Positions 30,263-42,305 of a DNA stretch of 46,147 nucleotides are shown in pieces. The DNA is from a virus. A model generated the notes under the pieces. That model made no database searches, was not told where the DNA came from, and saw only the letters and a program-made list of their open reading frames with translations. Both the position numbers and the translations under genes were made by a program. Location: positions 1 through 46,147 of the IMG/VR virus record IMGVR_UViG_3300031226_000003. The stretch is one strand, 5' to 3'. Within the stretch, counting starts at the first letter, position 1; each line of letters opens with the position of its first letter.

Positions 30263-31652
30263 CCCAATTCCATCCTACCTTTGCTTCGGCTGGAATTGTC
30301 AGTGTTCTCCCGTAGCGAAGTTCAACTGGCACAAGTATTTCCTTGAGCATTGCGGGCACGATTTCATTTTCTCTATCCTCAGGATACTGGATTAAGATTG
30401 CGTCGTGAATTTGTAACAGCACTTGAACCTTCTTGGTGCGCCAGACCTGTAACATTCCACGATTAAGGATGTCGCCGACGGACCCTTGGGGATCATATGC
30501 AATAGCTTCTCGAATTGTCGCATCGTCATCTCTGCGTCCAAAGAACCAGCGCCGCCTTCCCGAAAGAGATACCAGAAATCCGTCTCGGCGGAGGGTCTCG
30601 GCGACTGCTGCGTGCCATCTCTTGTGGGCCGTGAAGGCTGCGAAATAGCGAAGTTGGAAATTAGCAATAAGCTTTTGATCGAGCTTTGTATGCTGGGCCA
30701 TCGTGTAGGGTTGGCCGTTATAGTTAGTTCCATGACCAAGAACCTTTGCCATGTGTCGATATGAATGCTGTCGATAGAAGGGTTGCTCTGCAAGAGCCCT
30801 ATTCGCCTTAATATCATCGGTCCACTTAAGCTGGTCGCCCCACGCCAGACGACAGACTGTGGTGTGGAGGTCTCCGGACTCACAAGCGTCAAGGTAAGTT
30901 CCGTCATGAAACAGGTTCCACTCGATAGCGCCAACGAGTCGGCTTTCAGCTTGTTCGAGATCTATGTAAGCGAACTTCATTCCTGGGTCGGCGACGAAGA
31001 CTCCTCGGAGTCGCTCTTCGACGTTCTGTAAGTTACCGCCGGTTCCGAAGTCACTAAGTGACGAAGAAAATCTGCCAGTTGTCGTTCCAGCAATATTGTA
31101 TGACGTTCGTATTCTTCCGTCTGGATCGACTTCTGTCTTAAGAACCCCAACCTTCTTTGCAATATCTCGCATGTGAAGTATGTAATTAATAATAGGTTGC
31201 GCAACGAAATATTCCTTGAGTTTTTCCAAGGCTGTTCTATCGACTGTAACTCTTCCGCGCCGAATAACTGGAGGGAGTCTGAGCACCTCGTAGAACAGTT
31301 TGTTAAGCTGTTGTGGAGATCGCCAATTAAGGGATGCTGCTCCAACACCGTCTGCGATAATGTCATCGAGATCCTCGGACATCCACTCGATTTCTTGTTC
31401 ATACTTTTTCAAAGCCTCATCACGGGTTTTGAAGGAGATGCGAACACCACGCAAGCGCATCTCGAGAACAGGCTCTTGAAGTTCCATCTCGAATGCGTAG
31501 GTTGACGCGCTTAGGTTATCAAGTTGAGGATGAAGAACGTCAAGGACTTCTGCGGTGACGCAACAATCAAGACCATTGTAAAGCCAGAGCTTCTCTGTCT
31601 CTGACATAGGCATTGTCGCTGGTGTTAACTCGTGAGTTAAGAACTTCTTCAT
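30153..31652 (-). CDS. DNA polymerase, family A polymerase domain
   Basis: This copies the phage genome. The 499 residues hold only the polymerase fold: YNGLDCCVT near 30, motif A YIDLEQAESRL, motif B RHMAKVLGHGTNYNG (with histidine where E. coli Pol I has F762) and motif C QIHDAILI. The exonuclease domain that normally precedes it is encoded by the separate gene at 31788, and the membrane miniprotein gene at 31649 lies between. The ATG at 31652 overlaps the miniprotein stop (ATGA). About 35 residues after the usual WNWG end overlap the next gene. Confidence 0.93.
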   Translation of the reverse strand: MKKFLTHELTPATMPMSETEKLWLYNGLDCCVTAEVLDVLHPQLDNLSASTYAFEMELQEPVLEMRLRGVRISFKTRDEALKKYEQEIEWMSEDLDDIIADGVGAASLNWRSPQQLNKLFYEVLRLPPVIRRGRVTVDRTALEKLKEYFVAQPIINYILHMRDIAKKVGVLKTEVDPDGRIRTSYNIAGTTTGRFSSSLSDFGTGGNLQNVEERLRGVFVADPGMKFAYIDLEQAESRLVGAIEWNLFHDGTYLDACESGDLHTTVCRLAWGDQLKWTDDIKANRALAEQPFYRQHSYRHMAKVLGHGTNYNGQPYTMAQHTKLDQKLIANFQLRYFAAFTAHKRWHAAVAETLRRDGFLVSLSGRRRWFFGRRDDDATIREAIAYDPQGSVGDILNRGMLQVWRTKKVQVLLQIHDAILIQYPEDRENEIVPAMLKEILVPVELRYGRTLTIPAEAKVGWNWGAHSVDNCDGLKKYSDTDNRKRLATPETSVLDRQLL

Positions 31653-31795
31653 AGCGTGACCGTTAGAGTTAGAACCGCGGCCGCAAGCCAGTAGATCGCT
31701 CTTCGCCAGTCAGCATAGCATAAGTAAACAATAGATGCTGCCAAATCAAGGATGATCAGCAGGGTAGGAAAGAATGACTTGACAAGTTCACTCAT
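31649..31795 (-). CDS. 48-aa two-helix membrane miniprotein inside the split polymerase
   Basis: The ATG at 31795 lies in ATGAGTGA with the exonuclease stop, and its own stop overlaps the polymerase ATG, so three genes are coupled. The peptide opens MSELVKSFFPTLLIILDLAA and has two hydrophobic helices (about 7-27 and 33-47) joined by ADWRRA. Function is unknown; tethering replication proteins to the membrane or a holin-like role are guesses. An in-frame ATG six codons earlier is also possible. Confidence 0.68.
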   Translation of the reverse strand: MSELVKSFFPTLLIILDLAASIVYLCYADWRRAIYWLAAAVLTLTVTL

Positions 31796-32876
31796 CTCGC
31801 TTGATCGTGCCATGCTTACCCCTGCTTCGCATGAGTTTCCAGCTGGCTTCATTGGTGTAGACACTTCCAAGAAAGCCAAGCCCCTTCTGGGCTTCCGGCT
31901 GAAGGGAGTGATGTAAGAGCATTGTATCATCGGCAAAGTTCCTGACGACTATACCGTAGGTTCTCCATAAGAAAGTGATATCGTACAGACCGTTTTGGGC
32001 TGTTTTGGGACATGGCAGATCGAGCACTTTAGTGACCCACCACCAGGCGTCGCACTCAGCTGCAGCACTAGGCCAGTAACTTCCAGAACTTCCTCGTGGG
32101 TCAACAAAAGGGACAACGATAGCGCTTCCTGAGTTTGGACTGAACCCAATGCAAGTAATCTGATTGCCTGCAGTTTCCACGTCAAAGGCAATGCGCTCTG
32201 CTCTAACGAGGTGCTCGTCATAATACTGTTCCATATCCTCGAGCAATGGCTCGATATAGATCTCTCTTACTGGTCGTCGGACTTCTCTGAACGCGGCTTC
32301 CCTTTTCGTTTTGGTAAGATCGAGGACTGTGACTGGTCGGAGACTCCAGTCTCTGAGGACAGCTGCTGGGTGGTAGATCGGGATAGCCTTACCGTAAGGT
32401 GAGTTGGTGACAGTGCCGCGTATTTTACTAATTCCCGAATTGCGCAGGACTGCCCACGTAGCCGTATTTCCCAGAAGGACGGTAATGACTGGCTGCACAT
32501 TGGACAGTTCACTAGCCAGACGGTCGAGATGTCCCTTGTATTCAGCTCGAATATACTTGCCTGGTCTAAGAGGGGGCAGTCCAAGTTTATCCTCGGCTTT
32601 CGGGCCACAAAGTTTTTCAATGTCATTGCGCTCTGGCCTAAGGTTGAAGACGTTAGTTGTGAAGAACTGAGGATAGCGATCCCAAAGAAGGGCGACATAG
32701 ATAGGGTTGCGAGTAAACCACCACTGCTTGATAAGGTCGCGGTCAGTAGCATTAAGGGAAACAAGGCCAGCATCATGCATCATCTCGAACAGGGCAACGC
32801 CCGACGAGCCAACAAGTGCACGCTGGAGCTTTGCCTCGTTCTCACCCCATGCTTCACCGACGAATGCTATCGTCAT
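31788..32876 (-). CDS. UDG-like domain fused to 3'-5' exonuclease (polymerase N-terminal part)
   Basis: Residues 1-205 resemble family 4 uracil-DNA glycosylases: GEAWGENEA, TNVFNLRPERND, then HPAAVLRDW. Such a domain also opens the SPO1-type phage DNA polymerases. Residues 215-340 form a DnaQ-like proofreading exonuclease: Exo I AFDVET, Exo II QNGLYDITFL, Exo III FADDTMLLHHSL. The protein stops at GTIKRDE, just where the polymerase domain continues in other phages, so this is the N-terminal half of a split polymerase. The glycosylase part may be structural or inactive. Confidence 0.9.
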   Translation of the reverse strand: MTIAFVGEAWGENEAKLQRALVGSSGVALFEMMHDAGLVSLNATDRDLIKQWWFTRNPIYVALLWDRYPQFFTTNVFNLRPERNDIEKLCGPKAEDKLGLPPLRPGKYIRAEYKGHLDRLASELSNVQPVITVLLGNTATWAVLRNSGISKIRGTVTNSPYGKAIPIYHPAAVLRDWSLRPVTVLDLTKTKREAAFREVRRPVREIYIEPLLEDMEQYYDEHLVRAERIAFDVETAGNQITCIGFSPNSGSAIVVPFVDPRGSSGSYWPSAAAECDAWWWVTKVLDLPCPKTAQNGLYDITFLWRTYGIVVRNFADDTMLLHHSLQPEAQKGLGFLGSVYTNEASWKLMRSRGKHGTIKRDE

Positions 32877-33630: not shown

Positions 33631-33962
33631 GGCCTGGACTCCAGTGCGTGGCGGGCAAGCGTCCTGATCCACGGTGGGACACTGGTATCATCGGCCAAGG
33701 CCTGCAGCGCAGCCCGCAGCTGCTCGTTGTCTAGGCGCAGGGCGTGCTCGCTCGCGGTGATCTCTGTTGCAATGCGTTGCCAGTTTTCAGCCTTGGGCGT
33801 CAGCCACTCGATCTCGCGGTTGTGAGCAAGCTGCATGGCCAGCATGTCGGCATCGTGCTTGCGGGACTGTTGTGCAACCAGCGCCATCAGCCGCTCTATC
33901 TCGGCCTCAGCCTCTTCTAGATGCTTTCTCAGCCGCTCAATTTCAAGAATTTCAAGTGTCAT
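33627..33962 (-). CDS. Coiled-coil protein A (111 aa)
   Basis: Residues 3-60 are a long coiled coil (EILEIERLRKHLEEAEAEIE and onward). The ATG overlaps the methyltransferase stop (ATGA). It is the first of three tandem coiled-coil genes that seem richer in G and C than their neighbours, which hints at acquisition or local duplication. Function unknown. Confidence 0.7.
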   Translation of the reverse strand: MTLEILEIERLRKHLEEAEAEIERLMALVAQQSRKHDADMLAMQLAHNREIEWLTPKAENWQRIATEITASEHALRLDNEQLRAALQALADDTSVPPWIRTLARHALESRP

Positions 33963-35233
33963 GACGCCTTCCTCAATCGCCGGAACTTATTCAACTCGAT
34001 CCGCGCTCCTTCAGCGAAGACTTCATCAACCTCCAGGCCCTGAACGAAGCTCGCACCGAGCGACTCAGCCGCTCGCAGCGAAGAACCAGAACCACAGGTC
34101 GGGTCGAGCATAGTGCTACTCTCGTCAACGAACATTTCGAAGAAGTGCCGCAACATTGGTTCTGGTTTAATAGACATATGGATGTCTCGAACCGTAGGCG
34201 CAGAATAGGCATTACTTTTGCTACGAACGATAAGGCGGTCTCCTCTGGAGCCAAATAGCGCTGTCTCATAAATCCTCCTTGGACCCCGTTGTGGATCAGG
34301 TATGATACCAGCGTTGTCAGACTTTATCCAAACAAGGGGGAAAGGATCAAAAAGAAAAGGAGAATTATTAGTGAGATAATCGAGAGTGAATTGATAGTGC
34401 TGCATAGAAAACCAGAACATAAGATGAGCTGACTCAGAAGATAGTCTATCAGCGTTAGAACAAAGACAGTGCATAAGGTCATGATAGTGATCCAACGTGT
34501 CACGATAACCTCCATGTGTATCGGCTGCTCCTTGCACATGCTTGTCGGCGTTGATACCGTAGGGAAAGTCGCAATGAATGAAGTTAAAACGTGGGCCAGA
34601 ATATGCTGGTGCCCACTTAAGAAAGTCTGCGTTAAGGATTGATTGTGACTCGGGCTTGGGCTTATCCAACTCGATGTCTTGGAAGTGTTCAAGGTCAACA
34701 GCGCGCTTGCGTTCTTCCCTGCGTTCAACAATGCCAAGGGCAGTTGAATACATAGGCGCGGCGGCGACAGTCTCATTGCCCTGACGGAGTTCCTGTGCTA
34801 CTAAGATTTGCTTTGATACCGTCGGTTGCGACAGCCCAATGGCTTCGCCGGTATCCTTGTGCGACCAAGTGGGATCGTCCTGGCGACGAAGCTCGTGAAA
34901 ATCGAGGACAGCCATCGCGTTCTCTTGCCAAGTAAGATCGAGACGCTTGATGTTCTCTTCGAGTTCGATCGCACGCATCTCCTTCGGATCAAGTTCGTCC
35001 GAGTACTGAGCGTTGATGTGCGTCCAGCCCAGGACTTTGCAAGCGGCCAGACGGCACTCGCCTGCAAGAAGGACGTTCTCGGTATTCACTACGATAGGAT
35101 GGATTAGCCCACGCTTGTTAATTGAATAGGCAAGCTCGTTAATGTGACTTTCCTTTAGAACTTTTCGTTGCCGGTTCTCCCGATCGGTGAGGATAGTGCT
35201 GATCTCAATCGAATGGAAGCGACCGGAAGTCAT
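33959..35233 (-). CDS. ParB-like domain fused to a DNA methyltransferase
   Basis: Residues 5-95 form a ParB/sulfiredoxin-like domain (INKRGLIHPIVV, then LAGECRLAACKVLGW), 120-150 a helix-turn-helix (DTGEAIGLSQPTVSKQILVA), and about 195-424 an amino-methyltransferase. Its catalytic motif is DFPYG (222-226) in place of the usual DPPY, and the AdoMet motif DPTCGSGS (377-384) comes after it, the order of beta-class N4-cytosine or N6-adenine enzymes. Such fusions occur in phages and may modify DNA against restriction or regulate transcription. The palindromic element lies just upstream. Confidence 0.88.
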   Translation of the reverse strand: MTSGRFHSIEISTILTDRENRQRKVLKESHINELAYSINKRGLIHPIVVNTENVLLAGECRLAACKVLGWTHINAQYSDELDPKEMRAIELEENIKRLDLTWQENAMAVLDFHELRRQDDPTWSHKDTGEAIGLSQPTVSKQILVAQELRQGNETVAAAPMYSTALGIVERREERKRAVDLEHFQDIELDKPKPESQSILNADFLKWAPAYSGPRFNFIHCDFPYGINADKHVQGAADTHGGYRDTLDHYHDLMHCLCSNADRLSSESAHLMFWFSMQHYQFTLDYLTNNSPFLFDPFPLVWIKSDNAGIIPDPQRGPRRIYETALFGSRGDRLIVRSKSNAYSAPTVRDIHMSIKPEPMLRHFFEMFVDESSTMLDPTCGSGSSLRAAESLGASFVQGLEVDEVFAEGARIELNKFRRLRKAS

Positions 35234-41630: not shown

Positions 41631-41839
41631 GTGAACCTCTCAATAAAGGCTTTCGCCTCGTTGGCGTTTTGCTTCTCAACGATATGAAGAGCAATCATGA
41701 CGATAGCAGAGTTCATTTGCGTTTGCGGATGCTTGTTCATATCGAACACGAAACCTTCAAGGGCGTTTTGGATCTGGCCCTTGCTTAGTTCTGCAAGCCC
41801 ACGAAGCTTGCACCAAGCGATATGTTCTTCTCTTGTCAT
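41627..41839 (-). CDS. Unknown small protein (70 aa)
   Basis: Not recognised. It begins MTREEHIAWCKLRGLAELSK and is helical throughout. ATG 41839 overlaps the stop of the LEDLGL-tagged gene (TTATGA), which fixes this start against a longer frame to 41926 that would run inside that gene. Confidence 0.68.
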   Translation of the reverse strand: MTREEHIAWCKLRGLAELSKGQIQNALEGFVFDMNKHPQTQMNSAIVMIALHIVEKQNANEAKAFIERFT

Positions 41840-42231
41840 AAACCAAGATCCTCGAGTGAGAGTGCAACAGCGGGCTGAGCCTTTGGCTTCTCGTAGACCT
41901 TGACCGCTGCGTAGTGATCGGGCCAATCCTCAGGAACCTTCTCCTGCATAGAGACAGGACAGATGTGATAACCTTCGTACCCTATGTCTGAGCTATCTAC
42001 TAAGTCATCTAGTTCCCATGTCTTGAAGGGATAAGCACGATGGCCAGAGGTTGGAATGATCCAGCCTTCTTCATCGCCGATCATGATCTTCTCGGCAACG
42101 TCAAAGGCGGCCTCGCCTCGGACCTTGTGAAGGATTAAGTGTGTCACAGTTCTCTCCTTGCATTTACCTCTGGCCACGCACTCAGGTGATATCCAATCAG
42201 CAATCTGACAGGAGCACCTGAAGTGCTTCAT
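41836..42231 (-). CDS. LEDLGL-tagged protein with Cys-rich N-terminus (131 aa)
   Basis: Not recognised. The N-terminus MKHFRCSCQIADWISPEC, then VARGKC, offers four cysteines for metal binding. A mixed middle (GDEEGWIIPTSGHRAYPFK) and a flexible KPKAQPAVA linker lead to the terminal LSLEDLGL. ATG 42231 overlaps the stop of the 25-residue microprotein (ATGA). An internal GTG at 42147 has a better ribosome site (AAGGAGAGAACT) and could give a 103-residue form without the cysteines. Confidence 0.7.
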   Translation of the reverse strand: MKHFRCSCQIADWISPECVARGKCKERTVTHLILHKVRGEAAFDVAEKIMIGDEEGWIIPTSGHRAYPFKTWELDDLVDSSDIGYEGYHICPVSMQEKVPEDWPDHYAAVKVYEKPKAQPAVALSLEDLGL

Positions 42232-42305
42232 CGGATTGGCACCTGACAGTGGGTTAGAACGAGAAAGAGAAAGGCACAAATGCCTATGATTATCAGCCGC
42301 TTCAT
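42228..42305 (-). CDS. 25-aa membrane microprotein, lipobox-like
   Basis: The peptide begins MKRLIIIGICAFLFLVLTHC and ends QVPIR. Basic start, hydrophobic core and LTHC-Q resemble a short signal or lipoprotein sequence, although the lipobox is imperfect and little would remain after cleavage. Its ATG and its stop each overlap the neighbouring genes by four bases, which is strong evidence for translation. Confidence 0.55.
   Translation of the reverse strand: MKRLIIIGICAFLFLVLTHCQVPIR

Follow-up and report, generated by a model that had tools for sequence, protein, structure and literature searches.

A family-A phage DNA polymerase encoded by two genes, with the break inside its proofreading exonuclease domain

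In a lineage of phages and viral contigs, a family-A DNA polymerase is encoded by two consecutive genes, many pairs of which are separated by further small genes. Among 178 non-redundant loci with both halves, 141 are split at this junction, including the virus record with which the analysis began, while 33 are continuous and 4 are split elsewhere. We consider it very probable that this is a genes-in-pieces polymerase, in which a single ancestral break was followed by retention of both pieces, with the two chains assembling and the junction acting as a site for cargo genes.

Results

The DNA analysed (the window) is a virus record of 46,147 bases, IMGVR_UViG_3300031226_000003, in which no tRNA and no Rfam match was found. 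On its minus strand, a gene encoding a uracil-DNA glycosylase (UDG) domain together with a 3'-5' exonuclease is followed by a gene for a membrane miniprotein and then by the gene for a family-A polymerase (Table 1). The glycosylase domain is N-terminal in the exonuclease gene (Pfam UDG, E = 1.9e-12), and the polymerase ORF matches Pfam DNA_pol_A (E = 9e-38). Polymerase residues D231, R299, K303, H416 and D417, which we take to belong to motifs A, B and C, are invariant across 11 aligned sequences, and by these motifs the second half is a family-A DNA polymerase. A sequence-only reading of this DNA had described a polymerase split in two with a membrane miniprotein gene in the gap, coupled by the overlaps ATGAGTGA and ATGA, and reading of the ORFs confirmed this arrangement: the exonuclease stop is separated from the polymerase ATG by 135 nt, spanned by an ORF of 48 codons. 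An upstream gene (33959-35233, minus strand) appears by eye to be a ParB-like domain fused to a DNA methyltransferase, and in 79 of the 141 split loci a homologue of it precedes the exonuclease half.

Table 1. Features at the polymerase split in the window, with their positions and the basis of each assignment
Feature	Position	Strand	Basis
UDG + 3'-5' exonuclease half, 362 aa, ends GTIKRDE and stop	31788..32876	minus	Pfam and ORF reading
Exo I D232/E234	codons 32181-32183, 32175-32177	minus	exonuclease half
Exo II N295/D299	codons 31992-31994, 31980-31982	minus	exonuclease half
C-terminal tail of the exonuclease half	31788..31811	minus	TIK[RK][DE][DE] and stop kept, column counts
ATGAGTGA, exonuclease stop overlapped by miniprotein start	31788..31795	minus	sequence reading
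Membrane miniprotein gene, 48 codons, insert of this phage	31649..31795	minus	homologues and codon differences
ATGA, miniprotein stop overlapped by polymerase start	31649..31652	minus	sequence reading
Exo III + thumb/fingers/palm half, family-A DNA polymerase, 499 aa	30153..31652	minus	Pfam, Klenow alignment
N-terminal leader of the polymerase half, MKKFLTHELTP..., clade pattern M[KR].I.T..L.P	31581..31652	minus	column counts
Exo III YNGLD, polymerase ORF residues 25-29	31566..31580	minus	Klenow alignment, conservation in split loci

The first gene holds Exo I (DVET) and Exo II (NGLYD) and the second holds Exo III (YNGLD), which places the break, judging from these motifs, inside the 3'-5' exonuclease (proofreading) domain and not between the exonuclease and the polymerase. 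Residues 22-441 of the polymerase align with positions 171-579 of the Klenow chain, and through this alignment Y25 and D29 fall on Klenow Y497 and D501 if the chain is taken, as we assume, to start at residue 324. The earlier observation that the exonuclease ends at GTIKRDE and the polymerase resumes at EKLWLYNGLD (residues 20-29 of its ORF), where other phage enzymes are continuous, was borne out by the 33 continuous loci, and comparison with such unsplit homologues, proposed at the time as a check, maps the insertion between Exo II and Exo III. The break occupies the position at which continuous homologues read WKDEGKEW...YN..D. The UDG-PolA of Microcystis phage Mel-JY34 has the same UDG, exonuclease and polymerase domains (about 27-30% identity in the polymerase part) but is a single chain, and Mel-JY34 and most of the 33 continuous loci read through the loop with this pattern. 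By E-value, the top fold match of the exonuclease half is another single-chain enzyme, the phiLo family-A polymerase (9qhs). Two marks of a gene in pieces are present here: homologues that are continuous, and a break that lies within a conserved domain.

To establish how widely the split occurs, phages, viral contigs and genome contigs were searched with the polymerase and the exonuclease. The 205 loci obtained include 8 that were left unclassed, the exonuclease match being absent from the available stretch, and removal of identical polymerase DNA left 145 split and 33 continuous loci. Four of the former (L003, L087, L186 and L192) are broken at other places and are excluded from the 141, among which near-identical contigs are still present. 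In a FastTree phylogeny, 140 split and 29 continuous rows lie on opposite sides of one branch with a support of 96 (1 of the 141 loci was too short for the tree). In a second tree of 54 rows, the split branch has a support of 100/99 and is present in 100% of 200 bootstrap trees. No continuous member was found inside the split clade, where the same queries should have recovered one; the relatives come mostly from polymerase queries of this clade, by which continuous sisters are under-sampled. On the polymerase tree the split needs one change, indicating that it is a lineage-wide trait of single origin. It is carried by the cultured Caulobacter phage Kuura, in which the first half is annotated as 'hypothetical protein', and also by contigs binned with Terriglobia, Acidobacteria, Sphingomonadales and Phycisphaerae (L194-L197).

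Breaks at other places were also observed. In L186, L192 and Vibrio phage VS-ABTNL-3 (L003), a polymerase of the UDG-PolA type is interrupted within the polymerase domain, following NLQN (or NQQN), and the insert of L192 encodes a methyltransferase (Pfam match) which by eye resembles the gap methyltransferase of L021 and L027. In L087 (phage ctLwi270, MW202554) the break comes directly after Exo III, and the ORF in the gap (L087:2851-3135) encodes a zinc-ribbon protein resembling NrdR by eye. The near-identical contigs L184 and L190 have a UDG-PolA gene that is continuous apart from an interruption of ~300 bases, with a change of frame, in its exonuclease region. UDG-PolA-type polymerases appear to be repeated targets of such breaks.

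The exonuclease motifs are conserved in nearly all of the 141 split loci. The D and E of Exo I are found in 137, the N of Exo II in 139 and its D in all 141, the others being alignment gaps. The D of Exo III is likewise found in 141 and its Y in 139, with R in place of Y in 2 (L042 and L048, near-identical split polymerases that read RNGID). With the catalytic residues of the exonuclease kept in this way, the two chains probably combine to form a single proofreading polymerase with a shared exonuclease site, and an active site built from two chains is the simplest reading of this pattern. Together with the invariant polymerase columns, the alignments indicate that both pieces keep their catalytic residues, as genes in pieces do. 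The new ends are conserved in the clade as well: the exonuclease half finishes with TIK[RK][DE][DE] and the polymerase half opens with M[KR].I.T..L.P. AlphaFold predictions were of low confidence both at the junction of a continuous homologue and over the final 44 residues of the exonuclease half (pLDDT about 30-40), and these structures give reassembly no support.

The gap between the two halves, measured from stop to start, ranges from -4 to 1671 nt over the 141 split loci, with a median of 488 nt among inserts, and 19 loci have no insert. Genes in the gap were called with a simple ORF-chaining script, for which false calls are possible, and L042 and L048, together with the stop in L050, were placed by hand. 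By Pfam, the cargo includes DUF7768, DUF1937, DUF7220, HNH endonucleases (HNH_3), MazG and methyltransferases, with KTSC in record G001; the methyltransferase-like gap gene scores below Pfam's cut-off. Within the loci, DUF7768 occurs 31 times in the gap and never outside it, DUF1937 20 times inside and once outside, and DUF7220 18 times inside and never outside. HNH genes are ~17-fold denser in the gap than in the rest of the loci (0.26 versus 0.015 per kb, from 17 ORFs each), and are present in 15 of the 122 insert-bearing loci; no HNH ORF was found in the window. DUF7768 and DUF1937, both Pfam families without an assigned function, take the same gap in different sub-lineages, and the gap genes of the two families are related (hhalign probability 88, E = 3e-6). 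The gaps of one sub-lineage (L059-L082) contain, in most members, DUF7220 (73 aa) and an unnamed protein of 36-45 aa, both of them membrane proteins.

In the 118 loci for which gap genes were called, the first of them starts no more than 10 nt from the exonuclease stop in 101 cases, and the distance from the end of the last to the polymerase start is at most 15 nt in 103, so these genes form compact operons with the halves. As controls, a spacing above 100 nt was found between the polymerase and the gene after it in 6% of 131 loci and between parB and the exonuclease in 73% of 79 loci, compared to 87% of 141 for exonuclease to polymerase. This operon thus has two places of variable length, the exonuclease-polymerase junction and the parB-exonuclease interval, which varies about as much; what sets the former apart is not variability alone but the gap-specific families.

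On the tree, the insert appears or disappears at least 16 times and HNH presence changes 13 times. With equal costs, a root with an insert is 2 steps cheaper than one without (16 versus 18). These counts bear on whether the gene could have broken without an insertion, a stop/start overlap arising in the loop and the mobile and cargo genes coming later. This sequence of events is possible, though we judge it not the probable one. It would agree with the 19 loci whose halves abut or almost abut, many of them with ATGA- or TAATG-type overlaps, and a review of the mobile elements of T4-like phages likewise calls it hard to decide whether a seg endonuclease split gene 43 or entered one already split (PMC2988022). 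However, every basal lineage of the split clade has an insert, and the cheaper root points the same way by a weak margin.

The gaps also bear on whether the two halves could be rejoined during expression, by a group I intron or intein of which a remnant persists, or by programmed frameshifting or readthrough. In the window the exonuclease and the polymerase do share a frame, and a phage PolB split intein with an HNH gene has been described (PMC6892783, passages on that intein). We nevertheless regard restoration of one polymerase by any of these routes as extremely improbable. Over the 122 inserts, gap length modulo 3 is distributed as 46/45/31, which is near random, and all 46 in-frame inserts contain a further stop or stops; frames that are not kept, together with these stops, argue against splicing, inteins and readthrough. 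Rfam at gathering thresholds matched neither the window nor any of 15 loci examined, which include 14 relatives whose gap has HNH genes. The exonuclease tails (11-20 residues from WK to the stop) and the polymerase leader (about 23) are too short to be intein halves. The sequence-only reading had offered a domesticated intron remnant as one origin of the insert and had proposed folding it for group I intron structure; its RNA folds no better than shuffled sequences (z = -0.22), giving no intron signal. What stands of that proposal is an ancient insertion as the origin, with a mobile endonuclease gene a likelier vehicle than an intron.

Codon comparison indicates that the miniprotein is a real gene under purifying selection. 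Between the window and the closest homologue (L206), 22 of the 29 differing codons are synonymous and 7 nonsynonymous, and the differences fall 8/4/27 by codon position; this excess of synonymous and third-position differences, together with 30 homologues, supports real coding. The family comprises 30 relatives in viral contigs (49-83% identity) which are similar over most of their length and follow the pattern FPTLLIILD..AA..Y...GDWR.AIYWLAAA.LT..VTF, and hydropathy reveals two hydrophobic stretches on either side of a DWRR turn. The miniprotein matched no Pfam family above cut-off and no PHROG. Homology to the 36-45 aa membrane proteins of a freshwater clade was considered and rejected, as profile searches kept the two groups apart.

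The miniprotein is present in 2 of the 141 exonuclease-polymerase gaps, those of the window and L096. The nearest relatives of the window, L004 and L005 (76 and 80% polymerase identity), have a DUF7768 gene in the gap and no miniprotein. Homologues elsewhere adjoin helicase-like, methyltransferase-like, MazG-like and other genes (labels assigned by eye from the sequences), and 15 of the 16 miniprotein-bearing records examined contain no such polymerase within the record. In G001, about 33 kb separate the closest homologue (83%) from a polymerase of this family whose own gap is taken up by the KTSC-domain gene; close to the miniprotein homologue is a homologue (50%) of the window ORF 41836-42279. 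Given its rarity in the gap, its absence from the two nearest relatives and the occurrence of its family elsewhere, the miniprotein is, by its distribution, a passenger independent of the polymerase and not a structural part of it.

This distribution makes it very doubtful that the miniprotein gene entered the gap as a means of tethering or coupling the two polymerase halves to the membrane, as had been suggested: it is missing from 139 of the 141 split loci, among them the 19 without any insert. Relatives that lack the miniprotein and keep two separate genes with no gap, which the sequence-only reading had named as refuting its proposal, were indeed found. Unrelated small membrane proteins do recur in the gap, and 17 loci have a different one of 36-45 aa. 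A hydrophobic helix is present in 8 of 66 small gap families versus 1 of 39 in the parB-exonuclease interval, a difference that is not significant at the family level (p = 0.15); the per-gene figures (28 of 117 versus 1 of 53, p = 1e-4) are inflated by one family of 17 and are not counted as support.

Discussion

We propose that in one ancestor the polymerase gene was broken in the Exo II-Exo III loop of the proofreading exonuclease, most likely when a small mobile gene inserted there. The best candidate would be an HNH homing endonuclease, though the founding insert may have been something else, given the small share of insert loci with HNH genes. Both pieces would have stayed under selection, gaining their own stop and start with the conserved new tails. 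The observed stop/start overlaps suggest that the halves are translated in succession from the operon, and the near-complete conservation of the motifs suggests that in the assembled enzyme one chain contributes Exo I and Exo II to the exonuclease site and the other chain Exo III. The junction would later have become an insertion site at which HNH genes, DUF7768 and DUF1937 (both nucleotide-enzyme-like), methyltransferases and membrane miniproteins were gained and lost. Some lineages would have lost the insert altogether, and the present resident in this phage is the membrane protein of 48 aa, one of a family that is widespread among phages. A further suggestion, which we think unlikely, is that the split was kept as useful in itself: Exo III supplied in trans would make proofreading a separable and tunable activity of a two-subunit polymerase, and the gap would be a co-translated slot for DUF7768 and DUF1937 proteins or membrane miniproteins acting on the halves.

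Precedents are known for other phage enzymes. According to the relevant passages of PMC2988022, gene 43 (PolB) of Aeromonas phages 25 and 44RR is split into 43A and 43B, which are separated by the seg43 endonuclease or by an untranslated spacer, and gp43A and gp43B of phage 25 co-purify with polymerase activity. The same passages describe Aeh1 nrdA, split by mobE with activity retained, and the T4 topoisomerase, split by mobA. As in split gene 43, a phage replicative polymerase is here encoded as two chains, with a mobile endonuclease among the genes found between them in some loci. However, those cases concern a family-B enzyme in a few T4-like phages, whereas the present split affects family A in more than 100 loci, lies between Exo II and Exo III and has varied cargo. 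Similarly, Aeh1 nrdA, which encodes a ribonucleotide reductase, has, like some of our loci, an HNH gene between the pieces of an essential enzyme, and its two chains form a working enzyme; it is a different enzyme, and the gap in the window holds a membrane miniprotein and no endonuclease. As a free-standing homing endonuclease is absent from the window gap, the split is classed by analogy as working like the genes-in-pieces phage enzymes, with a putative endonuclease origin. A different comparison is ExnV1, a hot-spring phage PolA exonuclease that stands alone and that its authors consider truncated (PMC9629493, in passages that also name Klenow Tyr497 and Asp501). It too is a PolA-type exonuclease without a polymerase domain, and its family has an extra motif toward the end of the exonuclease domain. 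ExnV1 is, however, a whole exonuclease, with equivalents of Tyr497 and Asp501, and not part of a two-gene polymerase.

Full-text searches, covering few subscription journals, found no literature on this split. The passages retrieved from a DNA polymerase survey (PMC11348598) and a paper on virome polymerases (PMC9069017) include none relevant to 'split', and the split is not mentioned where the Kuura paper names its DNA polymerase. Split replicative polymerases had previously been described from a few T4-like phages. As far as we have searched, the split is new for family A, for this site and at this scale.

Annotation overlooks the split, as the 'hypothetical protein' label of the Kuura first half illustrates. 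Since the environmental lineage includes this cultured phage, an exonuclease active site that would be formed from two chains in nature becomes directly testable. The repeated switching between insert and no insert, 16 times or more on the tree, may be read as a replicated record of mobile genes opening a site in an essential gene, and of other genes using it.
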